A DNA stretch of 64,000 nt from Myxococcales bacterium (lineage in GTDB: Bacteria; Myxococcota; Myxococcia; Myxococcales; Myxococcaceae). This document shows positions 44,605 to 61,861 of the stretch, piece after piece. The notes under the pieces were generated by a model. It worked only from the letters and a program-made list of their open reading frames with translations. It made no database searches and was not told the DNA's origin. Within the stretch, counting starts at the first letter, position 1; every line of letters starts with the position of its first letter. Made by a program: the position numbers and the translations under genes. The DNA is taken from positions 62,001-126,000 of the forward strand of contig JADLDB010000160.1 of NCBI GenBank assembly GCA_020846875.1, written 5' to 3'.

Positions 44605-45762
44605 ATGGATCTCGAGGCGATCGTTCAACGCAGTGAGGCCTTGTTCCGAGACCAGGATCTCTCTGCGGTCAAAGAGTGGAAGTCGCGCACCGGCGGCAAG
44701 GTGATCGGCTTCATGCCGGTGTACGTGCCGCGGGAGTTGATCCATGCGGCGGGCGCGCTGCCGGTGGGCGTGATGGGTGCGGGGGAGCACGCCGAGATCA
44801 TCCGCGGCGACGCGTACTTCCAGTCGTACATCTGCCGCATCCCGCGCTCGACCATCGAGCTGGGCGTGTCGGGGAAGCTGGACGTGCTCGACGGCTTCCT
44901 CTTCCCCGCCATCTGCGACGTCATCCGCAACCTGAGCGGCATGTGGAAGATCCTCTTCCCGCAGAAGTACGCGCGGTACGTCGATCTTCCGCAGGACTTC
45001 GGCGCCGCGGGTCGCGCCTTCTACCGCCGCGAGCTCGAAGGGATGGCCGAGGACTTCACCAGGCTCACCGGGAAGGCGGTCACGGCCGAGGCGCTGCGCC
45101 GCTCGATCAAGGTCTACAACGAGAACCGACGTGCGATCGCCCGCCTGTACGACTTGCGATCCGAGGCGCCGCACCTGGTCCCGACCTGGGAGCTGTACCT
45201 GATCCTGCGCGCCGCCAACGTGCTCGAGGTGACCGAGCACACGAAGCTGGTCGAGGCCTACGCGCAGGCGGCCCGGCAGTCGAAGCGGCCCGAGCGCGAC
45301 TATGTGCGGGTGGTCGTCTCCGGCGCATTCTGCGAGCAGCCGCCGCTGGGCCTCATCCGCGCGCTGGAGAGCAGCGGGTGCTACATCGTCGACGACGACT
45401 GGGTGCTGGGCGCGCGCTACCTGGTGGAAGACGTCATTGAGGACGGCGATCCGTTCGACGCGCTGATCGACGCGTACGCGACGAAGACGGTGTCCACCGC
45501 GTCGCGCTATGAGTCCACGGCGCTCAAGGGCAAGTTCCTCGTCGAGCAGGTGCGCTCGCGGCGGGCGGAAGGGGTGGTCTTCGCGGCGCCCAGCTTCTGC
45601 GATCCCGCGCTGCTCGAGCGCCCGATGCTGCAGGCGGTCCTGAGCGAGCAGGGCATTCCTCACACCGGCTTCAAGTACGCAGAGAACACCGGGCAGATCC
45701 AGTCCATCAAGGAAGAGACCGGCACGTTCGCCGACTCCATCAAGCTGTGGGGTACCGCATGA
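44605..45762 (+). CDS. bcrC: Benzoyl-CoA reductase (class I, ATP-dependent), subunit C
   Basis: 385 residues, the length of Thauera BcrC. Characteristic segments are GFMPVYVPRELIHAAGALPVG, YICRIPRSTIELG, ICDVIRNLSGMWK, FCEQPPLGLI, and SFCDPALLERPML. The conserved Cys residues are candidate ligands of the active-site iron-sulfur clusters. With BcrB it forms the substrate-reducing half of the enzyme that dearomatizes benzoyl-CoA to cyclohexa-1,5-diene-1-carboxyl-CoA. GGAGG lies just before the ATG. It is the first gene of a fifteen-gene operon, and its stop overlaps the bcrB start by 4 bases. Confidence 0.93.
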   Translation: MDLEAIVQRSEALFRDQDLSAVKEWKSRTGGKVIGFMPVYVPRELIHAAGALPVGVMGAGEHAEIIRGDAYFQSYICRIPRSTIELGVSGKLDVLDGFLFPAICDVIRNLSGMWKILFPQKYARYVDLPQDFGAAGRAFYRRELEGMAEDFTRLTGKAVTAEALRRSIKVYNENRRAIARLYDLRSEAPHLVPTWELYLILRAANVLEVTEHTKLVEAYAQAARQSKRPERDYVRVVVSGAFCEQPPLGLIRALESSGCYIVDDDWVLGARYLVEDVIEDGDPFDALIDAYATKTVSTASRYESTALKGKFLVEQVRSRRAEGVVFAAPSFCDPALLERPMLQAVLSEQGIPHTGFKYAENTGQIQSIKEETGTFADSIKLWGTA

Positions 45763-47048
45763 GCACGACCACGACGGCCGACGTCGAAAAAGAGCCGAGC
45801 ATGATTCTGCAGAAGCAGATGATCGGCGATCACTTCCACGAGCTGGCCCGGGCCAAGGAGCTGGGGAAGAAGGTCGTCTACACCTTCGTGCCCGGCAACC
45901 TGAACGAGCTGATCTGGGCGTTCGACATGCTGCCGGTGCACCCCGAGATCAACGCGCTGCAGTCGGGCATGCGGAAGAAGAGCGGCGCCTACATCCAGGA
46001 GGCCGAGAAGGCCGGCCACTCCGAGGACGTCTGCACCTACGTGAAGTGCGACCTGGGCATGATGAAGAAGGGCAACATCGGCCCGACGGGTGAGCGGCTG
46101 CCGGCGCCCGACCTGCTGCTGCTCAGCTACACCGGCTGCTTCACCTTCATGAAGTGGTTCGAGCTGCTGCAGCGGGAGTACGGCTGCCCGGTGGCGATGC
46201 TGCACGTGCCCTACCAGGGCGACGGGGAGATCACCCCCGCGATGAAGCAGTACGTCGTCGATCAGCTCCGAGACTCTGTCATCCCGCTGATGGAGCAGGT
46301 GTCGGGGAAGAAGCTCGACCTGGAGCGGCTCAAGGGCTTCCTCGGCTCGTCGTCGCGCGCCGAAGACGACCTGTGCGCGATCTGGGACTCGGCGAAGCAC
46401 AAGCCGTCGCCGATCGACTCGTACTTCGGCGGTGTCTATTACATCGGGCCGATCTTCAGCGCGTTCCGGGGCCTGCCCCAGGCCGAGGAGTACTACAAGT
46501 CCCTGCGCGCCGAGGTGGACGCGCGGGTGGCGGCGAAGCGCGGGCCCACCACGCCCGACGGCGAGCTGAAGGATCAGAAGTTCCGCCTCGTCGTCGAAGG
46601 CCCGCCCAACTGGACCAGCTTCCGGGACTTCTGGAAGATGTTCTACGGAGAGGGCGCGGTGGTGGTCGCCTCCACCTACACCAAGGTGGGCGGCCTGTAC
46701 GATCGCGGCTTCCGTCACGATCCGGCGAACCCGCTGGAGACGATGGCCGAGTACTGCCTCGGCTGCTACACGAACCGCAACCTCCCGACGCGGGTCGACC
46801 TCATCGAGAAGTACATCGAGGAGTTCGCGGCGGACGGCTTCGTCGTCAACTCCATCAAGAGCTGCAACTCCTTCTCGGCCGGGCAGTTGCTCATGCTGCG
46901 CGAGCTGGAGAAGCGGACCGGGCGCCCGGGCGCCTTCATCGAGTCGGACCTGGTGGATCCCCGCTACTTCAGCGGGGCGAACATCAAGAACCGGCTCGAC
47001 TCGTACTTCCAGATGATCGACGCGAAGCGCGCGTCGTCGCCGACCTGA
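45759..47048 (+). CDS. bcrB: Benzoyl-CoA reductase (class I), subunit B
   Basis: 429 residues. Typical segments are VVYTFVPGNLNELIWAFDML, DVCTYVKCDLGMM, SYTGCFTFMKWFELLQ, and VVNSIKSCNSFSAGQ, which hold the three conserved Cys positions of the dehydratase-like fold. It pairs with BcrC to hold the catalytic clusters. The ATG at 45759 in an ATGA overlap is preferred to the longer frame. The order C-B-A-D is the same as in Thauera aromatica. Confidence 0.93.
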   Translation: MSTTTTADVEKEPSMILQKQMIGDHFHELARAKELGKKVVYTFVPGNLNELIWAFDMLPVHPEINALQSGMRKKSGAYIQEAEKAGHSEDVCTYVKCDLGMMKKGNIGPTGERLPAPDLLLLSYTGCFTFMKWFELLQREYGCPVAMLHVPYQGDGEITPAMKQYVVDQLRDSVIPLMEQVSGKKLDLERLKGFLGSSSRAEDDLCAIWDSAKHKPSPIDSYFGGVYYIGPIFSAFRGLPQAEEYYKSLRAEVDARVAAKRGPTTPDGELKDQKFRLVVEGPPNWTSFRDFWKMFYGEGAVVVASTYTKVGGLYDRGFRHDPANPLETMAEYCLGCYTNRNLPTRVDLIEKYIEEFAADGFVVNSIKSCNSFSAGQLLMLRELEKRTGRPGAFIESDLVDPRYFSGANIKNRLDSYFQMIDAKRASSPT

Positions 47049-47061
47049 GGAGACCTCGGAA

Positions 47062-48387
47062 ATGGACTGCTACGTCGGGATCGACCTCGGGTCGACCACC
47101 ACCAAGGCCGTGTTCCTGGATTCGTCGGAGCGGATCCTCGGCCGCGGCATCACCAACTCGCGCAGCAACTACACGGTGGCCTGCCAGGTGGCGCGCGAGG
47201 AGGCAGAGATCAGCGCCCGCTTCAACCTGCTCAAGCAGCGCCTGGCGAGCGTGCCCCGGCTGGGCGAGCGCGCCGACGAGCTGATGGCGTGGCTGTCGTG
47301 CAAGTTCGCCCTGGCGCAGCACCTCAAGCAGCTCAAGGTGCTCCAGCAGCAGTGCCAGGACGTCCTGGCGCGCACCGGCGTGAAGGGAGGGGAGGATCGT
47401 GCCCCCTATGAGCAGGCGCTCGTGCAGATCTTCGAGGCCCTGGTCTCGACGTCGGAGGCCCTGTTCGCGCCCAACCAGCGCAGCCAGTCGGACTTCTTTC
47501 GCGATCTCGCCACCAGCCTGTACCTGAAGGAGGCCGAGAAGGTGGCGCGCGCGAGCGGGCTGTCCTTCGACCGGACGGTGGGCATCTTCGACAAGGCGAT
47601 CCTGCAGGTGGAGAACACCAGCTTCGCGACCTTCTTCGCCGAGTACCTGGCCTTCGCCTGCAGGGAGACGGTGAAGGTCGAGCAGTTCAAGCGCTTCGAG
47701 CAGGACATCTCTCAGGCGGTCCGTGAGGTGACGGAGCTGAAGTTCAACGTGCTGAGCGAGGTGGGCACCGGCTACGGGCGGCTGACGCTGCCCTTCCCGA
47801 AGGAGCAGATCCGCTCCGAGATCCTCTGCCACGGCCTGGGCGCGCACTACATGTTCCCGAAGACGCGCACCGTGCTGGACATCGGCGGGCAGGACACCAA
47901 GTCCATCCAGGTCGACGAGAGCGGCATCGTCACCAGCTTCCAGATGAACGATCGCTGCGCGGCGGGCTGTGGGCGCTACCTCGGGTACATCGCCGACGAG
48001 ATGAACATGGGCGTGCACCAGCTCGGGCCGCTGGCGGCGCAGTCGAAGAACCCCGTGCGCATCAACTCGACCTGCACGGTGTTCGCCGGCGCAGAGCTGC
48101 GCGAGCGGCTGTCGCTGGGCGAGAAGCGCGAAGACATCCTCGCCGGGCTGCACCGGGCCATCATCCTGCGGGCGATGTCGATCCTCGCTCGCAGCGGAGG
48201 CGTCTTCTCCGAGTTCACCTTCACCGGCGGGGTGGCGCGCAACGAGGCCGCGGTGGCCGCGCTGAAGGAGCTGCTCAAGGAGAACTACGGCGACGTCCCC
48301 ATGAACATCAGCCCCGACAGCATCTTCACCGGGGCCACCGGCGCGGCGCTCTTCGCGCGGCGCGACTCGAAGAAGGCGGAGGCCTGA
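47062..48387 (+). CDS. bcrA: Benzoyl-CoA reductase (class I), ATPase subunit A
   Basis: 441 residues. It is an ASKHA-fold ATPase of the BadF/BcrA/HgdC activator family. The phosphate-1 loop is GIDLGSTTTKAVF. The cluster-binding Cys residues are C299 (NDRCAAGCGRY) and C338 (NSTCTVFAGAEL), 39 residues apart as in HgdC. An insertion of about 150 residues after the first lobe (about 50-200) is shared with BcrA of Thauera type. With BcrD it bridges a [4Fe-4S] cluster and uses ATP hydrolysis to lower electron potential. Confidence 0.94.
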   Translation: MDCYVGIDLGSTTTKAVFLDSSERILGRGITNSRSNYTVACQVAREEAEISARFNLLKQRLASVPRLGERADELMAWLSCKFALAQHLKQLKVLQQQCQDVLARTGVKGGEDRAPYEQALVQIFEALVSTSEALFAPNQRSQSDFFRDLATSLYLKEAEKVARASGLSFDRTVGIFDKAILQVENTSFATFFAEYLAFACRETVKVEQFKRFEQDISQAVREVTELKFNVLSEVGTGYGRLTLPFPKEQIRSEILCHGLGAHYMFPKTRTVLDIGGQDTKSIQVDESGIVTSFQMNDRCAAGCGRYLGYIADEMNMGVHQLGPLAAQSKNPVRINSTCTVFAGAELRERLSLGEKREDILAGLHRAIILRAMSILARSGGVFSEFTFTGGVARNEAAVAALKELLKENYGDVPMNISPDSIFTGATGAALFARRDSKKAEA

Positions 48388-48390
48388 ATC

Positions 48391-49242
48391 ATGTTCCTCA
48401 CCCTCGGCATCGACGTGGGCTGCAGCGCGGTGAAGGCCTCGCTCATGCAGTTCGACCCTGCGGGCGGCGGACCGAAGCTGCTGACCAGCGAAGGCGAGAA
48501 GATCCGCAAGCGCAACGTGAAGGACGTGATCGGCGACTGCTACGAGAAGGTGTTGACGAAGCAGGGCGTGAAGGCGGGGGACGTGGCCTATGTAGCCAGC
48601 ACGGGTGAGGGCGAGCTGGTCGACTTCCGCCGCGGCCACTTCTACTCGATGACCTGCCACTCTCGCGGAGGTCTCTTCCTCGCTCCGCAGGTGCGCGCGG
48701 TGGTGGACATGGGCGCCCTGCACGCCAAGGCGATCACCATGGACGAGCACGCGCGGGTGCTGGAGTACCGCATGACCAGCCAGTGCGCGTCGGGATCCGG
48801 GCAGTTCCTCGAGAACATCGCGCGCTATCTGGGCGTGGCCACCGAGGACATCGGGCAGCTGTCGCTGACGGCGAAGCAGCCGGAGACGGTGTCGGGCATC
48901 TGCGCGGTGCTGGCGGAGACGGACGTGATCAACATGGTCAGCCGCGGCATCGCCACCAACGACATCATCAAGGGCATTCACCTCTCGATGGCGCGGCGCC
49001 TGGTCAGCCTGCTGCGGGTGCTGAAGGCCGAGGGCGACGTGCTGGCGACGGGGGGCCTGGCACAGGACGCGGGGCTGGTGGCCGCCATGCAGGAGCTCGC
49101 CGAGAAGGACAAGATGGCGGTGCGCTTCATCGCCGATCCGCTGTCGCCCTTTGCCGGAGCCATCGGCGCGGCGCTGTGGGCGGCGGTGCGCCACGTGAAG
49201 CTCAGGGGTACGTCACGCTCGAGCTCGGAGGCTCGCGCCTGA
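48391..49242 (+). CDS. bcrD: Benzoyl-CoA reductase (class I), ATPase subunit D
   Basis: 283 residues, the same length as Thauera BcrD. The first loop is GIDVGCSAVKASL. C132 (TSQCASGSGQFL) and C171 (SGICAVLAETDVI) are again 39 residues apart and contribute the second half of the bridging cluster. The nucleotide-binding end is ATGGLAQDAG and FAGAIGAAL. It forms a heterodimer with BcrA. It starts 3 bases after bcrA. Confidence 0.94.
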   Translation: MFLTLGIDVGCSAVKASLMQFDPAGGGPKLLTSEGEKIRKRNVKDVIGDCYEKVLTKQGVKAGDVAYVASTGEGELVDFRRGHFYSMTCHSRGGLFLAPQVRAVVDMGALHAKAITMDEHARVLEYRMTSQCASGSGQFLENIARYLGVATEDIGQLSLTAKQPETVSGICAVLAETDVINMVSRGIATNDIIKGIHLSMARRLVSLLRVLKAEGDVLATGGLAQDAGLVAAMQELAEKDKMAVRFIADPLSPFAGAIGAALWAAVRHVKLRGTSRSSSEARA

Positions 49243-49243
49243 C

Positions 49244-50980
49244 GTGGCCACGCCCGGACAGATCGTCTCCTCGCCGGTGCCGCTCGGTGAGGTGACGCGC
49301 AACGTCGGCGCGATGCTGCTGGCCAACGGTGATCGCCTCGGCGCCTCCAACGCCTTCGCCCAGCGCGAAGGAGACGACTACCGCTTCTGGACCTGGCGGG
49401 AGCTCGTCGACGACGTGAAGGCGTTTGCCGCCTTCCTCGCGGCACAGGGGCTCGGGCGCGGAGATCGCTGCGCCTTCGTCACCCAGAACGGCTACGAGCG
49501 CGCGGTGGCCGAGATGGCGGTGATGGCGTCGGGCCTGGTCAGCGTGCCGATCTTCGCCGGCTACCCGAAGGCGATGATGTCGCAGCTGCTCACCTTCACG
49601 AAGGCGAAGGCGCTGGTGTGCGACGCGCCGGCGCAGCTGGAGGGCCTGGAGCCGGGCGCGCGGCCCGCCCTGGTGGTGGGCCTCAAGTGGCCGGGCGAGG
49701 GCGTGACGACCTTCGCCGCGGCGCTGGCGCAGGGGCGGGCCACCGGCGGCGCGACGCGCGACGCTTTCCTCGCGGTGCCGCCAGAGGCGCTGGCGCTCGT
49801 CATGTTCACCTCGGGCACGTCGGGGCGGCCCAAGGGCGTGATGCTGACGCACCGCAACCTGATGTCGCAGCAGCGCGCGCTGGAGCTGCTCTGGAAGCCG
49901 CGCCCCGGCATGCGCTTGCTCTGCTACCTGCCCTGGCACCACAGCTTTGGCGGGCTGTTCGAGCGCTTCTTCGCGCTGCACTCCGGTGGCTGCCTGGCGA
50001 TCGACGACTCCTGGGGGCGCGACACGAAGCGGCTGATCGCGAACTTCAAGGAGATCCGGCCCAACGTCTATTTCAGCGTGCCGAAGGTGTACCAGGAGCT
50101 GGTCGCCGCGGTGCTGTCGGACCGGGAGGTCGAGGGCATCGTCTTCAACCGGGAGCTGGACTTCGTCTTCACCGCCGCAGCGCCCCTGCCGCTGAGCGCG
50201 TCGGAGGTGTTCCGCGCGCACGGCGTCCCGGTGGTGGAGGGCTGGGGCCTGACGGAGACGTCGCCGTGCTGCACGCTGACCGAGCGCGCGCTCGAGCGGA
50301 CGCCTGGCGTGGTGGGGCGGCCGATCCCCGGGGTGGAGGTGGCGCTCGTTGACGATGGAGAGATCGTCGTGCGCGGGCCCAACGTGATGCAGGGCTACCT
50401 CGATCAGCCCGAGGCTACGCGCGAGGTGCTGGACGCCGGCGGCTGGTTTCACACCGGAGACCTGGGCGAATGGACTCCGGGCGGGCTGAAGATCCTCTCG
50501 CGCAAGGATCGCATGTTCAAGCTGTCGAACGGCGAGAAGGTCTTCCCCGCGCAGCTCGAAGAGACGCTGCGCGCGGGCTGCCGGTACGTGAAGCACTCCT
50601 TCGTCTTCGGCAGCGGCCAGCCGCACCCCCTGGCGCTCCTCTTCCCGAGCCGGGAGATGTTCCAGGTGAAGAAGGATGCGGCGGCCGACGGCGCCTGCGA
50701 GTGCCCGTCGGGCGAGGGATCGCTGGCCGAGTGCCTGGCCACCTGTATCCACCGCTTCAACCAGAAGGCGACGGCGCGCTTCGAGCGCATCGAGCGCGCG
50801 GTGGTGGTCTGCGCGGATCCTTCGCTGGAGAGCGGCGAGCTGACGCCGTCCTTCAAGCTGATCCCCCGCGCGGTGGAAGAGAAGTACCGTCAGCACATGC
50901 GCGCGCTCGAGCAGCACCGGGACGACGAGCTGCCGTCCGACGCGATCCCGGTCGACCCCAGCCCGGAGCGAAAGCCATGA
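49244..50980 (+). CDS. AMP-forming acyl-CoA synthetase
   Basis: 578 residues starting at GTG, 1 base after bcrD. The AMP-binding motif is MFTSGTSGRPKGVML, the second core motif is EGWGLTETSP, and the adenylate motif is GWFHTGDLGEW. The hinge region is ILSRKDRMFKLSNGEKVFP. The C-terminal catalytic Lys is in TPSFKLIPR. Overall it is closer to long-chain fatty acyl-CoA synthetases than to known benzoate-CoA ligases, so the substrate is uncertain. A Cys cluster (C485, C487, C497, C501) in the mobile C-terminal domain is unusual. Context suggests activation of an aromatic or derived acid. Confidence 0.88.
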   Translation: MATPGQIVSSPVPLGEVTRNVGAMLLANGDRLGASNAFAQREGDDYRFWTWRELVDDVKAFAAFLAAQGLGRGDRCAFVTQNGYERAVAEMAVMASGLVSVPIFAGYPKAMMSQLLTFTKAKALVCDAPAQLEGLEPGARPALVVGLKWPGEGVTTFAAALAQGRATGGATRDAFLAVPPEALALVMFTSGTSGRPKGVMLTHRNLMSQQRALELLWKPRPGMRLLCYLPWHHSFGGLFERFFALHSGGCLAIDDSWGRDTKRLIANFKEIRPNVYFSVPKVYQELVAAVLSDREVEGIVFNRELDFVFTAAAPLPLSASEVFRAHGVPVVEGWGLTETSPCCTLTERALERTPGVVGRPIPGVEVALVDDGEIVVRGPNVMQGYLDQPEATREVLDAGGWFHTGDLGEWTPGGLKILSRKDRMFKLSNGEKVFPAQLEETLRAGCRYVKHSFVFGSGQPHPLALLFPSREMFQVKKDAAADGACECPSGEGSLAECLATCIHRFNQKATARFERIERAVVVCADPSLESGELTPSFKLIPRAVEEKYRQHMRALEQHRDDELPSDAIPVDPSPERKP

Positions 50981-51914
50981 CCAGCACCCACTACGGCGTG
51001 ATCGGCCTCGGCCCCGTCGGCACCCTGCTGTCCGCGGTCCTCGGCGCGGCGGGGCAGCGGGTGTCCACGGTGAGCCTCGAGCGCGAGAAGGCCGAGGTCT
51101 TGCGGAAGTCGGCCATCAAGGTGCACGGGGCGATCAACCTGGAGGGCCGCGTCGCGCGCGCCTTCTTGACGCTGGAGGAGTTGCTCGAGTCGGCGCCCGA
51201 CGTCATCCTCCTCACCACCAAGTGCTGCGACTCCCCGGCGCTGCTCGATCGGATGAAGGCGCTGCAGCCGGAGCCGCGCTGGGTCATCGTGTCCTGCCAG
51301 AACGGCATCGACGTGGAGGCGCAGATCGTCGAGCGCTTCGGCGACGCGCGGGCGCTGCGCATGGTGCTGAACGTCGGCTGCCGGCTGCTCAGCCCGGTGG
51401 AGGTGGAGGTCGTCTTCAACCTGCCGAGCATCCTCTCTGATCGCGCGGCGGTGCCCGCGGCGGTGCGGCAGCGCGTGGCGAGCCACCTCGACGGCGCCGG
51501 CTTCCCGGTGCGCGTCGAGGAGAGCTACCAGACCGAGGTCTTCAAGAAGGCGATCCTCAACTCGTCGATGGGGGCGGTGAGCGCGCTCACCGGTCGCACC
51601 ATGCAGGGCGTGCTGGACGATCCCGGCCTCCGCCAGGTGCTGAAGGTGATGATCGAAGAGGACATCGCCATCGCGCAGCGGCTGGGGCTGGGGATCGGGC
51701 CGGGCTTCGTCGACGAGGCGATGGCGTACATGGGCCGCGGAGGCCACCACCGCCCGTCCATGCTCGAGGACCTCGAGCGTGGGAGGAAGACGGAGAACGA
51801 CGCCCACTGCGGGCGGATCGTCTACTACGCCGAGCGGCTCGGGGTGCCCGCGCCGATGAACCAGGCGATGTACGCGCTGGTGCGCAATCGCGAGCTGGGC
51901 GGAGGAGCAAAGGC

Positions 51915-51918
<4 letters not shown>
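50977..51918 (+). CDS. Ketopantoate reductase (PanE/ApbA) family oxidoreductase
   Basis: 313 residues. The N-terminal NADP-binding site is GVIGLGPVGTLLSAVLG. The helical C-terminal domain has the family Lys in VFKKAILNSSMGAVSAL, followed by a Glu/Asp-rich helix. PanE makes pantoate for coenzyme A, but this copy sits in an aromatic-CoA operon. It overlaps both neighbours by ATGA, so it may instead reduce a hydroxy/oxo acid of the pathway. No known anaerobic benzoyl-CoA route uses this family, to my knowledge. Confidence 0.82.
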
Positions 51919-53906
<1,988 letters not shown>

Positions 53907-53921
53907 CACGGTGGAGCACGC

Positions 53922-55187
53922 ATGAAGGCGACGGTTCGCGGGTTTCAGTCGAAGAAGGACGGCGTGGGCGCGGTCTTCGAGGACGTGTACCTCGTCGAAG
54001 GGAAGCGCACGCCGTTCGGCAAGCTGTCGGGTGCGCTGTCCACGGTGTCGCCGACGGATCTGGGCATCCTCGCGTCGCGGGCGGCGCTGAAGGCGGCGGG
54101 CGTGGACGGAGGCGAGGTGGACCAGACGATCGTCGCCAACATCGGCCAGGCCAGCGCCGACACCTTCTTCCTGCCTCGGCACCTCGGGCTGTACGCCGGC
54201 GCGCCCCAGGCCAGCCCGGCGCTGCTGGTGCAGCGCATCTGCGGCTCGGGCATCGAGGTGGTGGCGCAGGCGGCGGAGCAGATCGCCCTGGGCAAGGCGC
54301 AGGTGGTGCTGGGCTGTGGTACCGAGGCGATGAGCCGCTTCCCGCTGGCGTCCTTCGGGATGCGGAACGGCTTCGCCCTGGGCAAGCCGGACTTCGTCGA
54401 TCTGCTCTGGGAGGCGCTGGACGACACGGCCGCGGTCCCGATGGGCGCGACGGCGGACAACCTGGCGCGCGAGTACAAGCTCAGCCGCGACGAGGTGGAT
54501 CGCTTCGCCGAGCGCAGCCAGGCGCGCTGCTTCGCGGCGCAGGAGGCGGGCTACTTCGCGGGCGAGGTGTGCACCGTGGACAAGTCCGGGATCCTCGAGG
54601 CGCCGGGGCTGAAGCCGCGCAAGTACCGCTTGAAGGGCGGCGAGCCGCTGAGCGCCGACGAGCACCCGCGCCGCACCACGCTGGACAAGCTGGCCGCGCT
54701 GCCCTTCGTGTTCAGCAAGGACGGGCCCACCACCGCGGGTTCGGCGTCGGGCATCGTGGACGGCGCCTGTGCAGTGGTGATCGCCTCGGGCGACTACGTG
54801 CGGGCGCATGGCCTCAAGCCGCTGGGGAAGGTGCGCGGCGTCACGTCGGTGGGTGTGGAGCCGTCACTGATGGGCATCGGCCCGGCGCCGGCGATTCGGG
54901 CGTTGCTGCCGCAGCTGGGCCTCACCCTGGGGAACATCGACGTCTTCGAGATCAACGAGGCCTTCGGAGCGCAGTGCCTCGCGGTGGCCAAGGCGCTGGA
55001 GCTCAACCAGGACAAGCTGAACCCGCACGGCGGGGCTATCGCCATCGGCCACCCGCTGGCGGCGAGCGGTACGCGGCTGGCGCTGACCTGCCTGCGGGGC
55101 CTCAAGCAGCGCAAAGGCCAGCTGGGCGTGGTGTCGGCTTGCATCGGCGGTGGGCAGGGCATCGCCATGGTGCTCGAGGCGGTTTGA
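53922..55187 (+). CDS. Thiolase (acetyl-CoA acyltransferase)
   Basis: 421 residues. The catalytic residues are Cys in QRICGSGIE, His in NPHGGAIAIGHPLAASG, and Cys in VSACIGGGQG. The protein starts with about 20 extra residues before the family opening (EDVYLVEGKRTPFGKLSG). It cleaves 3-oxoacyl-CoA in the last step of beta-oxidation and pairs naturally with the upstream dehydrogenase/hydratase. The start lies 15 bases after that gene. Confidence 0.93.
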   Translation: MKATVRGFQSKKDGVGAVFEDVYLVEGKRTPFGKLSGALSTVSPTDLGILASRAALKAAGVDGGEVDQTIVANIGQASADTFFLPRHLGLYAGAPQASPALLVQRICGSGIEVVAQAAEQIALGKAQVVLGCGTEAMSRFPLASFGMRNGFALGKPDFVDLLWEALDDTAAVPMGATADNLAREYKLSRDEVDRFAERSQARCFAAQEAGYFAGEVCTVDKSGILEAPGLKPRKYRLKGGEPLSADEHPRRTTLDKLAALPFVFSKDGPTTAGSASGIVDGACAVVIASGDYVRAHGLKPLGKVRGVTSVGVEPSLMGIGPAPAIRALLPQLGLTLGNIDVFEINEAFGAQCLAVAKALELNQDKLNPHGGAIAIGHPLAASGTRLALTCLRGLKQRKGQLGVVSACIGGGQGIAMVLEAV

Positions 55188-55203: not shown

Positions 55204-55683
55204 ATGGAGAAGCGACTGGTCAAGCTGACGGTGAACGGCGTCGCGCACGAGCGCGCCGTGGCGCCCGCGGCGACGCTGCTGGAGGTGCTGCGCGAGGAGC
55301 TGTTCCTCACCGGCACCAAGCGCGGATGCGACGTCGGGGACTGCGGGTGCTGCACGGTGCTGCTGGACGGGGCGCCGGTGCTGTCCTGCCTGGTGCTGGC
55401 GCTCGAGGCGGACGGCGCGGAGATCCGCACCATCGAAGGCGTGGCCAACGGCAACCAGCTCCACCCGGTGCAGCAGGCCTTCGTCGATCACGGCGCGATC
55501 CAGTGCGGGTTCTGCACCCCGTCGATGGTGCTCAACGCCGTGCACCTGCTGGACACCAACCCGAGCCCCGACGCAGCCGCGGTGAAGACCTGCGTGTCGG
55601 GCACCATCTGCCGGTGCACCGGCTACACGAAGATCGAGCAGGCAGTGCACGCCGCGGCTCGCGCCTGCACCAAGACGCCATGA
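55204..55683 (+). CDS. hcrC: 4-Hydroxybenzoyl-CoA reductase, iron-sulfur (gamma) subunit
   Basis: 159 residues with two [2Fe-2S] clusters. C42, C47, C50 and C62 form the plant-type site, and C101, C104, C136 and C138 the helical site (CGFCTP, CRCTGY). This is the small subunit of the xanthine oxidase family. Identity as HcrC rather than a xanthine or CO dehydrogenase subunit rests mainly on the HcrB-type subunit in the same operon. The stop overlaps the hcrA start by 4 bases. Confidence 0.88.
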   Translation: MEKRLVKLTVNGVAHERAVAPAATLLEVLREELFLTGTKRGCDVGDCGCCTVLLDGAPVLSCLVLALEADGAEIRTIEGVANGNQLHPVQQAFVDHGAIQCGFCTPSMVLNAVHLLDTNPSPDAAAVKTCVSGTICRCTGYTKIEQAVHAAARACTKTP

Positions 55684-58061
55684 CGACCTGGCAGCTCCTC
55701 GGAAAGCCCACCCCGCAGGTGGGCGCGGTGGACAAGGTGACGGGCCGGGCCCGCTACACGGACGATCTGCGGGTGCACGATCCGTTGCACGTGAAGATCC
55801 TTCGAGCTCCGCACGCGAGCGCGAAGATCAAGTCGGTGGACGTGAGCGCGGCGAAGGCGCTGCCCGGCGTGCGGGCGATCCTCACCGGCGCGGACTTCAA
55901 GCGGACCTTCGGGGTGCTGCCGATCAGCCGTGACGAGCCGGCGCTGGCCCGCGACCGCGTGCGCTACGTGGGGGAGCCGGTGGCGGCGGTGGCGGCGGAC
56001 TCGGCGCGGCTGGCCGAGGCGGCGCTGGCGGCGATCCGCGTGGACTACGAGGTGACGCCGGCGGTCCTCACCTTCGAGGAAGCGCGCCGCGAGACGAAGA
56101 CGCCGCTGCACCCGGAGCTGGAGAAGTCGAACAACCTGCACAAGCAGGTGCAGCAGTCCTTCGGCGATCTCTCCAGAGGGTTCGCGGACGCGGCGGTGAC
56201 GGTGGAAGGAGAGTTCCGCTTCCTGCCCGTCACGCACGCCTTCACCGAGCCGCACGCGGTGCAGGTGGAGCACGACGGCGAGCTGCTGGTCGTCACCTCG
56301 GCGACGCAGGTGCCGCACTACGTACACCTGGCGCTGTCCGAGGTGCTCGAGCTGCCACCGCACCGGCTGCGCGTGGTGAAGCCGCACCTCGGTGGCGGCT
56401 TCGGCGGCAAGAGCGATCCCTTCCCCCACGAGATGATCGCCGCGAAGTTCGCGCTGGTGACGGGGCGGAACATTCGCCTCGTGTACGAGCGCGAAGAGGT
56501 CTTCCTGAGCAACCACGGCCGGCACCCCACCGAGCTCAAGATGAAGCTGGGGCTGCACCCGGAGCGGGGCGTCACCGCGCTGGACACGAAGGTGATGATC
56601 GACGGCGGCGCCTATGGCTCCTTCGGCGTCGTCACCACCTACTACAACGGGGTGCTGCTCCAGGGGCCGTACCCGGTGCCCAACTCGGCGTTCCAGTGCG
56701 AGCGCTTCTACACGAACAAGCCGATGTGCGGCGCGATGCGCGGCCACGGTGGCGTCAACCCGCGCTTCGCCAGCGAGACGCTGATGGACATGGCGTGCGT
56801 GCAGGCGGGGCTGGATCCGCTGGAGGCGCGGCTCAAGTTCCTCCACACCGGCGATACGATTACGCCGAACGGCTTTCGCATCACCTCGGCCGGGCTGCGC
56901 GAGGGGCTGGCCGAGGCGGCGCAGCGGACGAAGTGGAAGGAGAAGTGGGGCAAGTTGCCCCCAGGCAAGGGCATCGGCGTGGCGTGCGGCTTCTTCATCT
57001 CGGGGAGCGCGCTGCCGATCCACCGCAACGAGCTGCCGCAGTCGACGGTGCGCCTCACCATCGACTTCGACGGCGGCATCACCGTGTACTCGGGCGCCTC
57101 CGACATCGGGCAGGGCAGCGACACGATGCTGGCGCTGGTGGTGGCGGAGGTGCTGGGCGCGCCCCTGTCGCTGGTGAAGGTCGTCTCGGCCGACACGCGG
57201 CTCACGCCCATCGATCTCGGCAGCTACAGCTCGCGCGTCACCTTCATGGCCGGCAACGCGGCGCGCAACGCAGCGATCAGCATGCGCAAGGAGCTGGTCG
57301 CGGCAGCCGCCAGGCTGTCGGGCCGAGCGCCACCGGAGTACCCAAAGCCGGGCGAGCCCGAGAGCCCGTTCCGCCTCGGGCAGCGCCCGCCGGACTTCGA
57401 CAGCCACTTCCTGGGACCCAACCCCGACTACCGCGACGGCTGGACCTTCGCGAACCTCACGGTGACTCCCGACGGCGGGGCGGCGCTGGACTACTTCCAG
57501 GTGGTGACGGCGGCGCTGGCCGGGCGTGGGATCCTGCAGACGCAGGGCGTGTACCAGTCGCCGAAGCTGGAAGGCGGCAAGCACAAGGGCGCGGGCGCGG
57601 GGCTGTCTCCCAGCTACAGCTTCACCGCGGTGATCAGCGAGGTGGACGTCGACGTCGAGACCGGCTTCGTGCGCGTCGAGAAGATCGCTTGCGCGCACGA
57701 CTGCGGCAGGCAGCTGAACCCCCTCGCCGTCGAAGGCCAGCTGGAGGGCTCCATTCACATGGGGCTCGGCCAGGCGCTGATGGAGGGCATGGCGTACGAG
57801 GCGGGCGCGGTCCAGAACGCGTCCTTCCTCGAGTACAAGATCCCCTCGGCCTTCGAGCAGCCGGTGATCGACCTGGTGCGCTGCCCGTCGGTGGACAACG
57901 AAGGTCCGTTTGGCGCGAAGGAGGTCGGCGAGGGCGCGCTGGCGCCGGTGGTGCCGTCGATCGCCAACGCCATCTACGACGCGGTGGGGGTGCGCCTGAT
58001 GCGCGTGCCGATGACGCCCGAGGTGGTGTTGGCCGCGCTGGCCGCGAGGAGGGGACGCTGA
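55680..58061 (+). CDS. hcrA: 4-Hydroxybenzoyl-CoA reductase, molybdopterin (alpha) subunit
   Basis: 793 residues, close to Thauera HcrA (769). It opens with VGAVDKVTGRARYTDDL, the family start. Molybdenum-cofactor segments are HLGGGFGGKSDPF, CGAMRGHGGVNPRF, and SDIGQGSDT. The active-site Glu lies in GAKEVGEGALAP. The enzyme removes the phenolic hydroxyl of 4-hydroxybenzoyl-CoA to give benzoyl-CoA, using reduced ferredoxin. Molybdenum (MCD) cofactor genes are not in the window. Confidence 0.9.
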   Translation: MTTWQLLGKPTPQVGAVDKVTGRARYTDDLRVHDPLHVKILRAPHASAKIKSVDVSAAKALPGVRAILTGADFKRTFGVLPISRDEPALARDRVRYVGEPVAAVAADSARLAEAALAAIRVDYEVTPAVLTFEEARRETKTPLHPELEKSNNLHKQVQQSFGDLSRGFADAAVTVEGEFRFLPVTHAFTEPHAVQVEHDGELLVVTSATQVPHYVHLALSEVLELPPHRLRVVKPHLGGGFGGKSDPFPHEMIAAKFALVTGRNIRLVYEREEVFLSNHGRHPTELKMKLGLHPERGVTALDTKVMIDGGAYGSFGVVTTYYNGVLLQGPYPVPNSAFQCERFYTNKPMCGAMRGHGGVNPRFASETLMDMACVQAGLDPLEARLKFLHTGDTITPNGFRITSAGLREGLAEAAQRTKWKEKWGKLPPGKGIGVACGFFISGSALPIHRNELPQSTVRLTIDFDGGITVYSGASDIGQGSDTMLALVVAEVLGAPLSLVKVVSADTRLTPIDLGSYSSRVTFMAGNAARNAAISMRKELVAAAARLSGRAPPEYPKPGEPESPFRLGQRPPDFDSHFLGPNPDYRDGWTFANLTVTPDGGAALDYFQVVTAALAGRGILQTQGVYQSPKLEGGKHKGAGAGLSPSYSFTAVISEVDVDVETGFVRVEKIACAHDCGRQLNPLAVEGQLEGSIHMGLGQALMEGMAYEAGAVQNASFLEYKIPSAFEQPVIDLVRCPSVDNEGPFGAKEVGEGALAPVVPSIANAIYDAVGVRLMRVPMTPEVVLAALAARRGR

Positions 58062-59032
58062 TGTTGCTCCCGGCCTTCTCGTACGAGCGCCCAGCCGAGC
58101 TTCCCGGCGCCCTGGCCCTGCTGCAGCGGCTCGCCGCGGCGGGGGTCTCGTACCGCGTGCACGCCGGCGGCACGGACCTGGTGCCCGAGTTGAAGCGTGA
58201 CGAGGCGGCGATCGGCACGGTGGTGTCGATCTCGAGGCTGGAGGCGCTGCGCGGCGTGCGTGCCCGGCCGGACGGCGGGCTCGAGGTGGGCGCGTTGACC
58301 CGCCTGTCTGCGCTGGCCGAGGAGGTGCGCGAGCGCTTCCCCGTCATCTCCGACACGGCGCTCCAGATCGCGAGCCCGCAGATCCGCAACCGGGCCACGC
58401 TGGGCGGCAATCTGCTGGTGGACAACCGCTGCGTCTACTTCAACCAGAGCCCGGATCACCGCGACGTCCACGCGGGCTGCTTCAAGGCGGGCGGTGAGGT
58501 GTGCCACCTGGTGCCGAGCGCGAAGCGAGGCGCTCAGCCGCTGTGCCGGGCGCGCTTCGTGTCGGATCTGGCGCCGGTGTTGATCCTCCACGACGCGAAG
58601 GTCGTCCTCGCGCGCGCGGGGGCCGAGCGGGAGCTGCTCCTGAAGGATCTCTACGCCCCGGACGGCATCCAGCGCACGCAGGTCGCGCCGGGGGAGTTGC
58701 TCACGCGCGTGCTGATCCCCGCCTCGGCCACCCGCAGGGTACACTACCTCAAGCTCCGCATCCGCCAGGCGCTCGACTTCCCCTCGCTCGGCGTGGCGGT
58801 GAGCCTCGACGGCAAGAAGCTGGGCGTAGCCCTCACCGGGGTGAACACGCACCCGGTGGTGTTGGCCTACGAGGGCGCGCTCGACGCTACGCTGAAGCAG
58901 GCCTGTGAGGACGGTCCGAAGCGGGTGGCGCCGCTGGCTCAGGACTTCTTCTCGCCCGCCTACCGGCGGCAGATGATCCCCGTGCTCATCCGTCGGGCCG
59001 TCGCCGTTCTCTCGAAGAAGGACACCCCATGA
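58061..59032 (+). CDS. hcrB: 4-Hydroxybenzoyl-CoA reductase, FAD (beta) subunit with extra iron-sulfur site
   Basis: 323 residues, against 324 in Thauera. FAD-binding segments are VHAGGTDLVPELK and IRNRATLGGNLL. An insert of about 40 residues contains C124, C140, C148 and C162, matching the ligands of the unique [4Fe-4S] cluster of HcrB (C122, C138, C146, C155 in Thauera). The last spacing is 7 residues longer here. This insert distinguishes 4-hydroxybenzoyl-CoA reductase from other xanthine oxidase family enzymes. The start shares one base with the hcrA stop (TGATG). Confidence 0.92.
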   Translation: MLLPAFSYERPAELPGALALLQRLAAAGVSYRVHAGGTDLVPELKRDEAAIGTVVSISRLEALRGVRARPDGGLEVGALTRLSALAEEVRERFPVISDTALQIASPQIRNRATLGGNLLVDNRCVYFNQSPDHRDVHAGCFKAGGEVCHLVPSAKRGAQPLCRARFVSDLAPVLILHDAKVVLARAGAERELLLKDLYAPDGIQRTQVAPGELLTRVLIPASATRRVHYLKLRIRQALDFPSLGVAVSLDGKKLGVALTGVNTHPVVLAYEGALDATLKQACEDGPKRVAPLAQDFFSPAYRRQMIPVLIRRAVAVLSKKDTP

Positions 59033-60225
59033 CCGCGCGCGCGAACGTCAAAGAGGTGATGAAGGAGTACCTGCTCGACCTGGATCAGGCCGCCCAGGAC
59101 GGCCGGCGCAAGGTGGCGTGGTGCACGTCGGTGGGACCCGCGGAGATCCTCCGTGCGGCGGGCTACGAGGTCTTCTTCCCCGAGAACCACGGGGCGCTGC
59201 TCGGCGCGACGCGCATGTCCATGGACACGATCCCCGTCGCCAACGCCGCTGGCTACTCGCCGGACATCTGCAGCTACCTGACGTCGGACGTGGGCGCGTG
59301 GATGAAGGGCATCACGCCGCTCACGCAGGCCTACGGGATCAAGTCCGTCCCGAAGCCCGATCTGCTCGTCTACAACACCAACCAGTGCAAGGACGTGATG
59401 CACTGGTTCGAGTTCTACGCGCGCGAGCTGAAGGTGCCCATCTACGGGGTGCACTCGCCCAACCACCTGCCCGAGGTGACGGCGGCGCACGAGGACGCGG
59501 TGGTGGCGCAGCTCAAGGGCCTCATCGCGCTGACCGAGCAGCTCACGGGCAAGCGCTTCGACGAGGAGGCCTTCAGGCAGTCGCTGGCGCTGTCGAAGCA
59601 GGCGACGGATCTCTGGGCCGAGGTGCTGGCCACCGCGCGCGCGCGTCCGAGCCCCTTGAGCTTCTTCGACGCCACCATCTACATGGGGCCCATCGTGGTG
59701 CTGCGCGGCACCGAGGTGGCGCGCGACTACTACGTGGCGCAGTTGGCGGAGCTGAAGGCGAAGATCGCCGCGGGCGAGGCGGCGGTGCCGGGCGAGACCA
59801 AGCGCCTGTATTGGGACGGCATGCCGGTGTGGGGCCGGCTGCGAAGCCTGTCGGACCTCTTCAAGCGCAACCACACCGCGGTGGTGGCGTCGACCTACTG
59901 CAACAGCTGGATCTTCAGTGACTTCGACGCGGCGGATCCGCTGCGCACCATGGCGCGCGCGTACCTGAAGATCTTCATCAACCGGAACGACGCGTACAAG
60001 GAGCGCTACATCGCCGACACGGTGCGCGAGTTCGGGATCGACGGGGTCGTCTTCCTCGAGGCGAAGACGTGCCCGAACAACTCGAACAGCCAGTACAACC
60101 TGCCGGCCCGGCTGCGCGCGAAGGGCGTTCGCTCCGTGGTGGTGAACGGAGATCTGTGCGATCTGCGCTGCTTCTCGGACGAGCAGGCGGCGACGGTCCT
60201 CGAAGCCTTCCTCGAGACGCTATGA
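59029..60225 (+). CDS. Orphan BcrB-like / 2-hydroxyacyl-CoA dehydratase-family subunit
   Basis: 398 residues. The fold positions follow BcrB: DICSYLTSDVGAW (C81), NTNQCKDVMHWFEFY (C120), and LEAKTCPNNSNSQYN (C348). Additional Cys are C32, C291, C377 and C381. It is clearly different from both BcrB and BcrC of the same operon, and no second subunit is encoded beside it; the next gene is a single activator ATPase. One-subunit members of this family exist, such as YjiM of E. coli and the double-cubane cluster proteins, which reduce small molecules with ATP-driven electrons. The substrate is unknown. ATGA overlaps occur on both sides. Confidence 0.85.
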   Translation: MTARANVKEVMKEYLLDLDQAAQDGRRKVAWCTSVGPAEILRAAGYEVFFPENHGALLGATRMSMDTIPVANAAGYSPDICSYLTSDVGAWMKGITPLTQAYGIKSVPKPDLLVYNTNQCKDVMHWFEFYARELKVPIYGVHSPNHLPEVTAAHEDAVVAQLKGLIALTEQLTGKRFDEEAFRQSLALSKQATDLWAEVLATARARPSPLSFFDATIYMGPIVVLRGTEVARDYYVAQLAELKAKIAAGEAAVPGETKRLYWDGMPVWGRLRSLSDLFKRNHTAVVASTYCNSWIFSDFDAADPLRTMARAYLKIFINRNDAYKERYIADTVREFGIDGVVFLEAKTCPNNSNSQYNLPARLRAKGVRSVVVNGDLCDLRCFSDEQAATVLEAFLETL

Positions 60226-61085
60226 CGACGTACTGGGGCGTGGACTGCGGTAGCACCGAGATCAAGGTCGTCGCGTGCGACGACGCGGGGCGGGTCCTGC
60301 ACCGGCACCGGCGGCGAACGCTCTTCCCGCTGATCGAGCACGTGCGCGGCGCGCTGGCGGGCGACGGGGACTTCGAGAACCCCCTGGTGGACGGCGGTGC
60401 GCGCGTAGCCGAGGGGCACTTCGTCACCGCCACCGGCTACGGCCGCGGCCACCTCGACTTCGCGCAGGACAAGCTGACGGAGATCCGCGCGCACTACCTG
60501 GGAGTGCGTCACCAATTGGGCGCAGAGCTGCCCCCGGGGCAGGACTACGCGATCATCGACATCGGCGGGCAGGACTCGAAGGTCATCACCGTCAAGACGG
60601 GCGACGTCGATCAGTTCATCATCAACCGTAAGTGCGCCGCGGGCACCGGCGCCTTCATCGAGGAGCTCGCCCACCGGCTGCGGATCGAGCTGGCCAGCCT
60701 GCCCGAGCTGGAGCGCCGCCATGACGCCGAGCTCACCTTGAACAGCTACTGCACGGTGTTCGCCGCGCAGGAGGTGATCAAGGTGCTGATGGAGGGCCAG
60801 CGGGTGGAGAACCTGATCCACGCGCTGTACCGATCGGTGGTGAAGCGCGTCCTGGAGATGACGGTGGTGACGGCGCCGTCGGTCGTCTTCTCGGGCGGCG
60901 TGCTGACGCACCACGAGCCCCTGCGTCGGATGTTCGGTGAGAAGCTGCCGGGCAAGAGGTTCCTGCTCGCGCCCGAGGCCCAGTTCTGTGGGGCGATCGG
61001 CGCCGCGCTGCACGGCCTCGAGCGCGCCCGGAAGCAGGCCGCGCCCCCGGTCCACCCCAGCCCCAGCCAGGAGAAGCACCCATGA
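60222..61085 (+). CDS. ASKHA ATPase activator of the BadF/HgdC family
   Basis: 287 residues from the ATG at 60222. The phosphate loop is [13 protein letters not shown], and the second site is [11 protein letters not shown]. The cluster Cys are C138 ([11 protein letters not shown]) and C177 ([12 protein letters not shown]), 39 residues apart as in homodimeric HgdC. The short form lacks the BcrA insertion, so it likely works as a homodimer with one bridging [4Fe-4S] cluster. It should donate high-energy electrons to the BcrB-like protein upstream, with which it overlaps by 4 bases. Confidence 0.9.
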
Positions 61086-61861
61086 GCTCCCCAGTCGCCC
61101 TCATCACCGGGGGCACCCGCGGCGTCGGCCGCGCGCTGTCGCTGCGCCTCGCGCGACGTGGATACGACGTCGTGGCCACGTGGCGACGCGACGAGGCCGC
61201 CGCGAAGTCGCTGGAGCAGGAGCTCGCGCGCCTCGACCGCCGCTGCCTCGCGCTGCAGGCCGACCAGTTGGAGCCCGCCACCCTCGAGGCGGCGTTCGAT
61301 CGCACGGCGAAGGACTTCGGGCACCTCGACGTCTTCGTGGCGAACGCGGCGGCCACCAAGTTCGCGCCCCTCATGGGGCTCAAGGCGCACCAACTGGACA
61401 AGACCTTCAACGTCACCGTGAAGAGCTTCCTGGTGGGCTGCCAGCGCGCGGCGCCGCTGATGAAGGGGCGGGGCGGGCGGATCGTCGCGGTGTCGGGCTT
61501 CGACGCGCGCACGCCGCTGCCGCAGCACGGGCTGCTGGGCGCGATGAAGGCGGCGATGGAGGTGATGGTGAAGTACCTGGCCTGCGAATTGGCGGCCGAC
61601 GGCATTCGCGTCAACGCGGTGAACCCGGGCTACATCGACACCGAGTCCTCGCGCTTCTACGTGGGCGAGGCGGGGTGGAAGAAGCTCGAGGCCACCTTGA
61701 GCCAGCTGATCCCCGCGGGGCACATCGCGTCGGCCGACGAGATCGCCGAGGCCATCGAGTGGGTGTGCCTGCCCGAGTCCCGGTACGTCAACGGCACCAC
61801 CATCACCGTCGATGGTGGGATGGACGTCGGCTACCAGTTCTACCTGTCGTCCAGAATGTAG
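61082..61861 (+). CDS. Short-chain dehydrogenase/reductase family protein lacking the catalytic Tyr
   Basis: 259 residues. The cofactor site is [13 protein letters not shown] and the structural motif is NAA (88-90). The catalytic Ser (S138, VAVSGF) and Lys (K156) are present. The Tyr is absent: position -4 from Lys is Leu152, and position -7 (used by FabI/FabL-type enzymes) is His149. The C-terminus ([24 protein letters not shown]) is closest in style to FabL enoyl reductases. It may be a reductase using another proton donor. It overlaps the activator gene by 4 bases. Confidence 0.85.

Follow-up and report, generated by a model that had tools for sequence, protein, structure and literature searches.

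A PanE-family protein encoded in a benzoyl-coenzyme A reductase operon is a candidate arylpyruvate reductase

We analysed a stretch of 64,000 nucleotides from a Myxococcales bacterium (contig JADLDB010000160.1), hereafter the window, in which an open frame at 50977-51918 on the + strand encodes a PanE/ApbA-family reductase of 313 amino acids (P0001; own genome, G000) within an operon for benzoyl-coenzyme A (CoA) reductase. Coordinates are those of the window unless preceded by the name of another locus. With a probability of roughly 0.64, we propose that P0001 is a stereospecific 2-oxo acid reductase that has been recruited for aromatic amino acid catabolism, i.e. a putative arylpyruvate reductase or D-aryllactate dehydrogenase. 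This assignment draws on the position of the gene, its association with a 2-hydroxyacyl-CoA dehydratase-like protein in the same operon and elsewhere, natural fusions of the two protein families, and residues of the active site.

A PanE-family gene within a benzoyl-CoA reductase operon

P0001 matches the Pfam domains ApbA (53.4 bits, cut-off 22.2) and ApbA_C (95.9 bits, cut-off 22.7), and the NCBIfam subfamily model TIGR00745 (151.6 bits, cut-off 141.35). Among the NCBIfam equivalog models listed for it, not one attains its cut-off. The gene is the sixth in a run of 14 on the + strand that extends from bcrC (44605) to a short-chain dehydrogenase/reductase (SDR) gene ending at 61861. The run opens with the four subunits of benzoyl-CoA reductase: bcrC (44605-45762; TIGR02263, 530.8 bits, cut-off 421.15), bcrB (45759-47048, its ATG at 45759 overlapping the bcrC stop; TIGR02260, 715.9, cut-off 486.55), bcrA (47062-48387; TIGR02259, 577.3, cut-off 578) and bcrD (48391-49242; TIGR02261, 334.2, cut-off 312.85). 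BcrB, BcrC and BcrD thus exceed the NCBIfam equivalog cut-offs, and BcrA is 0.7 bit short.

Next to bcrD, and directly before the PanE gene, lies LIG (49244-50980), an AMP-forming acyl-CoA ligase identified by the Pfam AMP-binding domain. An ATGA (50977-50980) is common to its stop and the PanE start, and a second one (51915-51918) is common to the PanE stop and the start of HAD-ECH (51915-53906), a fusion of 3-hydroxyacyl-CoA dehydrogenase and enoyl-CoA hydratase assigned by Pfam. The frame, the Pfam matches and these overlaps confirm the original prediction of a PanE-family gene in a bcr operon that is tied by ATGA to its two neighbours, the acyl-CoA ligase and HAD/ECH genes. Such overlaps occur at seven junctions of the run, the other five being bcrC/bcrB, hcrC/hcrA, hcrB/HGDD2, HGDD2/ACT2 and ACT2/SDR. 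A LIG homologue directly precedes PanE in seven loci counting the window, and since this order recurs in six other loci, the arrangement is not due to chance.

A predicted route from aromatic amino acids to benzoyl-CoA

As judged from their families, all genes of the run except that for the SDR fit a single route from arylpyruvate to benzoyl-CoA. An aminotransferase would convert Phe or Tyr to phenylpyruvate or 4-hydroxyphenylpyruvate, which P0001 would reduce with NAD(P)H to (R)-aryllactate, and LIG, a proposed aryllactate-CoA ligase, would form the CoA ester. HGDD2 (59029-60225), a single HGD-D protein resembling 2-hydroxyacyl-CoA dehydratases (Pfam HGD-D, PDB match 3o3m), would be fired by the ATP-dependent activase ACT2 (60222-61085; BcrAD_BadFG family) and remove water by radical chemistry, giving cinnamoyl-CoA or 4-coumaroyl-CoA. 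Hydration and then oxidation of this enoyl-CoA would fall to HAD-ECH, through its ECH and HAD domains, and a thiolase (53922-55187, Pfam) would release acetyl-CoA together with benzoyl-CoA or 4-hydroxybenzoyl-CoA. Lastly, an Hcr-like enzyme would remove the 4-hydroxyl group, and BcrCBAD would dearomatise the ring. The Hcr-like enzyme is encoded by an hcrC-like gene for a 2Fe-2S subunit (55204-55683, start chosen at ATG 55204), an hcrA-like gene for a molybdopterin subunit (55680-58061) and an hcrB-like gene for an FAD subunit (58061-59032, start chosen at the in-frame Met codon 58061).

The stereochemistry of this scheme fits, because ketopantoate reductase (KPR) gives 2R products (PMC10127515) and the 3-aryllactate (Fld) pathway of Clostridium sporogenes uses (R)-2-hydroxy acids (PMC5897657). 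The aryl nature of the substrate, which we infer from the company the gene keeps rather than from structure, the point at which the CoA ester is formed and the activities themselves are the conjectural parts of the scheme.

Anaerobic breakdown of Phe and Tyr to benzoyl-CoA is known to proceed via phenylacetate and alpha-oxidation. On balance, we lean towards a wider proposal, namely an undescribed anaerobic route for Phe and Tyr that would lead from arylpyruvate through (R)-aryllactate to aryllactyl-CoA; after dehydration by radical chemistry, a single beta-oxidation cycle would yield (4-hydroxy)benzoyl-CoA for ring reduction. It would operate in Myxococcota, in metagenome-assembled genomes (MAGs) labelled Deltaproteobacteria or Bdellovibrio, and also in Heimdall/Hodarchaeota, where the reductase would be of the Bzd type. 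PanE-family proteins would have been recruited to it at least twice, once by being covalently joined to a dehydratase subunit that no longer has its iron-sulphur ligands. If true, this dehydration and beta-oxidation route would join enzymes of amino acid fermentation to ring reduction, and would assign a function to members of the PanE family, named after a vitamin enzyme, that form this clade.

PanE-family proteins accompany a dehydratase-like protein

HGDD2 finds its best PDB match in 3o3m (E 3.3e-44), which is the 2-hydroxyisocaproyl-CoA dehydratase alpha subunit, followed by MbdO and BzdO. In an alignment to 3o3m, a Ser and three cluster Cys are kept in all nine free HGDD2 rows. This Ser aligns with Ser37 of HadB, which we take to have a functional role; no publication on HadB Ser37 surfaced in the open-licence PMC literature. 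The adjoining ACT2 scores 172.8 bits on the activase model TIGR00241 (cut-off 125.4). We link PanE to the dehydratase because the two genes lie in the same run, with ATGA overlaps at HGDD2-ACT2, and because the two families are fused in six bcr genomes.

Genome contigs were scanned with an alignment of four clade members, which gave 22 loci. Three (L124-L126) were left out for their low identity (22-23%) and KPR-type residues, and the 19 that were counted were searched by tblastn with the window genes plus Had, Oah and Dch of G096. Benzoyl-CoA genes, i.e. Bcr/Bzd-like, Had/Oah/Dch or Hcr-like, are found in 12 of the 19 (L105, L107, L108, L109, L112, L113, L114, L116, L117, L119, L120 and L122). 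HGDD2 or its activase is found in nine (L106, L108, L112, L113, L116-L119 and L121, the HGD-D match of L121 being in small pieces), and 15 loci have one or both kinds of gene. Locus L110 represents a piece of G031, in which the bcr and HGDD2 genes lie on other contigs. PanE, HGDD2, an activase and an aminotransferase form a single run in L106. The Heimdall/Hodarchaeota loci (L113, L114, L116, L117 and L119) encode a Bzd-like benzoyl-CoA reductase and have the gene order HGDD2, activase, PanE; HGDD2 and activase are present in all except L114, the stretch of which begins at PanE. Reductase subunits N, O and Q of L116, the sole locus scanned with NCBIfam, exceed the Bzd cut-offs. An aldehyde ferredoxin oxidoreductase is also encoded in L116 and L113, and POR genes in L116.

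BcrB is over cut-off in 26 genomes among 195 of the phylum. HGDD2 occurs at >50% identity in nine of them (G000, G031, G035, G050, G096, G097, G101, G102 and G192), G098 has the fused type of HGD-D, and the other 16 have BcrB-level matches only, save G042 (40%) and G009 (38%). A PanE is shown in nine of the ten genomes with HGDD2 or the fused type: eight are in a bcr or HGDD2 locus, and that of G031 is beside a ligase on a contig of its own. In G097 the contig ends inside the cluster. The original prediction had asked whether the clade co-occurs with bcr genes: benzoyl-CoA genes are present at 12 of the 19 loci, and no such PanE is shown in 16 of the 26 bcr genomes. A further HGD-D protein, 34-36% identical to HGDD2 (219-232 bits) and distinct from BcrB, HGDD2 and the fusion, is encoded in six genomes (G050, G096, G097, G098, G101 and G192).

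Natural fusions of PanE and HGD-D

Six bcr genomes (G050, G096, G098, G101, G102 and G192) encode proteins of 745-771 amino acids with an N-terminal PanE and a C-terminal HGD-D part (L132:8755-11043, L134:7180-9468, L131:7399-9678, L130:10736-12973, L072:2803-5091 and L135:7340-9655). ApbA, ApbA_C and HGD-D are above the Pfam cut-offs in all six. In a FastTree phylogeny of 43 rows, without support values, the fused PanE domains group separately from the window clade and E. coli PanE falls between the two, which suggests that the fused lineage is an independent joining of PanE and dehydratase. In every fused HGD-D domain the Ser (replaced by Thr in two of them) and the first two cluster Cys are missing, and in five of six the third Cys is gone as well. 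The fusion is followed by free HGDD2, activases and an AMP ligase in five of the six genomes, the contig of G098 ending there.

HAD-ECH-thiolase genes are divergent beside the fusion in five of six and adjoin bcrD in the sixth, G192, and Hcr-like genes lie in the fusion stretch of four (G050, G101, G102 and G192). BcrB is about 10-12 kb from the fusion in G050, G101 and G102. In G096 the two share a contig at a distance of about 85 kb, and in G098 and G192 they lie on separate contigs. Two genes adjoining the G096 fusion are IorA-like and PaaK-like, with scores of 523 and 547 bits against cut-offs of 651 and 646, respectively. A natural PanE-HGD-D fusion offers a direct test of the proposed partnership.

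Active-site residues and predicted fold

We aligned P0001 and 19 clade relatives (20 rows) with E. coli PanE and 13 PanE rows from relatives. Residues Asn98, Lys176, Asn180, Ser244 and Glu256 (E. coli numbering) are kept in all 20 clade rows, whereas Asn194 is replaced by Met and Asn241 by His in all 20, and Asn184 is lost in 19; P0001 itself has Gly, Met and His in place of Asn184, Asn194 and Asn241. In the model of E. coli KPR, Asn98 and Lys176 bind the 2-oxo group, Asn184 and Ser244 bind the carboxylate, and Asn194 and Asn241 hold the 4-OH of the substrate (PMC10127515). The alignment thus points to a clade in which the carbonyl-reducing machinery is retained and the 4-OH contacts are gone. 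All three pocket asparagines are kept in this alignment only by E. coli PanE and L124-L126. The original prediction saw no place for this gene in the known benzoyl-CoA pathways, and indeed none of their textbook steps calls for P0001, an operon member with its catalytic residues retained. The unrecognised oxo-reduction then proposed probably does take place.

The predicted structure of P0001 has a predicted local distance difference test (pLDDT) value of 94.8. Its fold compares with archaeal KPR (Z 36.2) and with the D-mandelate dehydrogenase 5x20 (Z 34.7), and does not discriminate between the two.

Weighing the assignment against its alternatives

Several observations weigh against the assignment. 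The operon in the window contains no aminotransferase, and in L106 the aminotransferase stays under cut-off in the best 25 of 59 families listed. LIG is assigned generically, a PDB search having given no specific match, and the Hcr-like genes are all under the curated cut-offs: the A subunit has TIGR03194 as the best of 13 families (817.5 bits, cut-off 994.55), the B subunit TIGR03195 as the best of seven (192.8, cut-off 404.55) and the C subunit TIGR03193 as third best of 11 (166, cut-off 257.8). HadBC and FldBC are two-subunit dehydratases; the genome of the window encodes three HGD-D proteins only (BcrC, BcrB and HGDD2), with no second dehydratase subunit, and HGDD2 scores 199.8 bits against a cut-off of 750 on the HadB equivalog model. 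Clade PanE genes have neither bcr nor HGDD2 nearby in L111 and L123, only a thiolase and a HAD in L115, and no HAD-ECH match in the G035 locus. For the other 16 bcr genomes, tblastn (E <=1e-8) detected no PanE in the bcr stretches retrieved, several of them truncated where a contig ends. The pocket is not distinctive either, since Asn194 and Asn241 occur together in none of the 13 rows of PanE from relatives, five of which have His241, and the fused PanE lineage retains Asn184 and Asn241. In addition, Had, Oah and Dch are under cut-off in the genome of the window (best matches 88.6, 111.0 and 94.2 bits); an assembly gap, loss or another ring-opening route may account for this.

The best-placed alternative, still an unlikely one, is that P0001 reduces a non-aromatic 2-oxo acid, e.g. 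from Leu or Glu, and feeds the HGD-D dehydratase with it. The nearest PDB relative of HGDD2 acts on 2-hydroxyisocaproyl-CoA, and the reductase-dehydratase-aminotransferase set of L106 lies on a stretch without bcr. However, the neighbours that recur across loci (bcr/bzd-like, Had/Oah/Dch, Hcr-like, IorA-like and PaaK-like genes) indicate aromatic acids.

That P0001 is simply the KPR of the genome, placed in the operon by chance, is likewise improbable. According to the original prediction, the lack of any other panE would make it the pantothenate enzyme. Within this genome (7.06 Mb in 200 contigs, completeness 100), P0001 is indeed the sole TIGR00745 match above cut-off; its contig also carries panB and panC, and the fold matches archaeal KPR (Z 36). 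The pantothenate conclusion does not follow, however. PanE is not found over cut-off in 28 of 60 related genomes, own genome included in the 60 (in many genomes, 31 of the first-look candidates were scored), and 27 of these 28 have panB above cut-off; sole-PanE status therefore does not prove a pantothenate function. Weaker PanE-like matches, at 62-127 bits, occur in six of the 28 and may be broken or divergent copies; in the remaining 22 no match exceeds 38.6 bits. Genomes of this order can thus carry panB without a recognisable PanE, so another enzyme can do the step, and IlvC is a known alternative for ketopantoate reduction. The operon position conserved in distant MAGs and the substituted 4-OH-binding residues also argue against a pantothenate role. 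Other PanE of the order, some with higher TIGR00745 scores, lack the pocket asparagines as well, and the pocket change alone therefore cannot exclude ketopantoate, which slightly lowers the odds of the arylpyruvate assignment.

The original prediction also considered that P0001 might replace Had, or oxidize another ring-hydroxyl CoA ester. We surveyed Had, Oah and Dch in 27 genomes, i.e. the 26 with BcrB over cut-off and G056. Had is over cut-off in 25, Oah in 22 and Dch in seven, with 16 further genomes at 195-273 bits for Dch; the genome of the window is the sole one without both Had and Oah above cut-off, despite its bcrCBAD, which would suit a replacement. Five clusters nevertheless contain both Had and clade PanE, namely those of L108, L109 (truncated at the start of its contig), L112 (G035), L120 (G056) and L122, and in G031 Had lies beside HGDD2 (L091) on a different contig from the clade PanE. 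These Had genes are 46-51% identical by tblastn to a Had above the TIGR03201 cut-off. Because Had accompanies clade PanE in these six genomes or loci, we rejected the replacement, which is now very unlikely. The residues of P0001 suit reduction of free 2-oxo acids, and with Oah and Dch missing too there is more to compensate than one reductase could. TIGR03201 is not among the 16 families matching P0001, and it has no match on contig C160 among the own-genome matches listed. The Had clusters include one in a Planctomycetota MAG (L122:350-6487) in which Hcr-like genes, PanE and Had lie together. A 340-amino acid frame at 37686-38708 on the - strand of the window resembles the L108 Had-like dehydrogenase in BLAST and is absent from the TIGR03201 matches listed for G000.

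Slighter still are the chances that P0001 serves catabolism by oxidizing an imported D-2-hydroxy acid, for example mandelate or phenyllactate, in the manner of D-mandelate dehydrogenase, with which it has the G.H.PSM stretch in common and which it resembles in fold (Z 34.7 to 5x20), since KPR folds match equally well, no phenylglyoxylate oxidoreductase is among the operon genes, and mandelyl-CoA is without a beta hydrogen for the dehydratase.

Comparison with known systems

The candidate arylpyruvate reductase route resembles the Fld pathway, in which a 2-oxo acid is reduced to an (R)-2-hydroxy acid, converted to a CoA ester and dehydrated by a radical 2-hydroxyacyl-CoA dehydratase with its activator (PMC5897657). 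The two differ in that the Fld pathway ends in a reduced arylpropionate, whereas the window has beta-oxidation genes and benzoyl-CoA reductase, and in that FldA is a CoA-transferase, whereas the window encodes a ligase, a single HGD-D protein and a PanE-family reductase.

Within its own family, P0001 shares with E. coli PanE the fold and the 2-oxo-reducing residues, unlike it in the three substituted pocket positions. The fold and a catalytic Lys/Asn/Glu set are also those of D-mandelate dehydrogenase and fungal 2-ketoisovalerate reductase (PMC3478992); PMC4580590 and PMC6303947 cite Wada 2008 for the D-mandelate dehydrogenase/KPR family. The G.H.PSM stretch of P0001 is that of the D-mandelate dehydrogenase 3wfi. 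Unlike those enzymes, P0001 is encoded in an operon with benzoyl-CoA genes, and its identity to the solved D-mandelate dehydrogenases is 18-20%.

The Thauera-type bcr operon is dch-had-oah-bcrCBAD. That of the window shares bcrCBAD with it, but has no had, oah or dch, nor does the assembly over cut-off, and bcrD is instead followed by LIG, PanE, HAD/ECH, thiolase, Hcr-like genes, HGDD2 and ACT2.

A search of the open-licence PMC literature for benzoyl-CoA with 2-dehydropantoate 2-reductase under anaerobic metabolism gave no report, and one for phenyllactate or phenyllactyl-CoA dehydratase with benzoyl-CoA gave a single benzene study (PMC13416013). This study of strain BzS1 draws, as one of several hypotheses, a path from 2-oxo-3-phenylpropanoate via cinnamoyl-CoA to benzoyl-CoA (PMC13416013). 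Its scheme differs from ours in serving benzene activation, in FldA-like transferases and in a lone FldB-like protein, and mentions no PanE in the portion of its text available (PMC13416013). Phenylalanine with 3-hydroxy-3-phenylpropionyl-CoA retrieved nothing from the same literature, which does not by itself show absence in print.

Minor observations on neighbouring genes

PDB searches with the thiolase and HAD-ECH gave generic family matches. The HcrA-like protein (55680-58061) is matched by TIGR03194 in two stretches, which suggests an insertion and perhaps a different substrate. For the SDR that ends the run (61082-61861; Pfam adh_short_C2), a BadH-type route was considered, and the best 25 of its 231 NCBIfam matches are generic SDR models, all under cut-off. 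SDR genes 28-32% identical to it come after the thiolase in L105, L108, L109 and L110.

A gene of the tryptophanase/tyrosine-phenol-lyase family (L091:4059-5495) adjoins HGDD2-ACT2 in G031 and, like the IorA-like and PaaK-like genes of G096, counts as an aromatic-acid neighbour. The context is a different one in L111 (L111:6012-16779), where no bcr was found and the clade PanE lies with an FAD_binding_2 flavoprotein, an AbgT transporter, a LysR regulator and c-type cytochromes.

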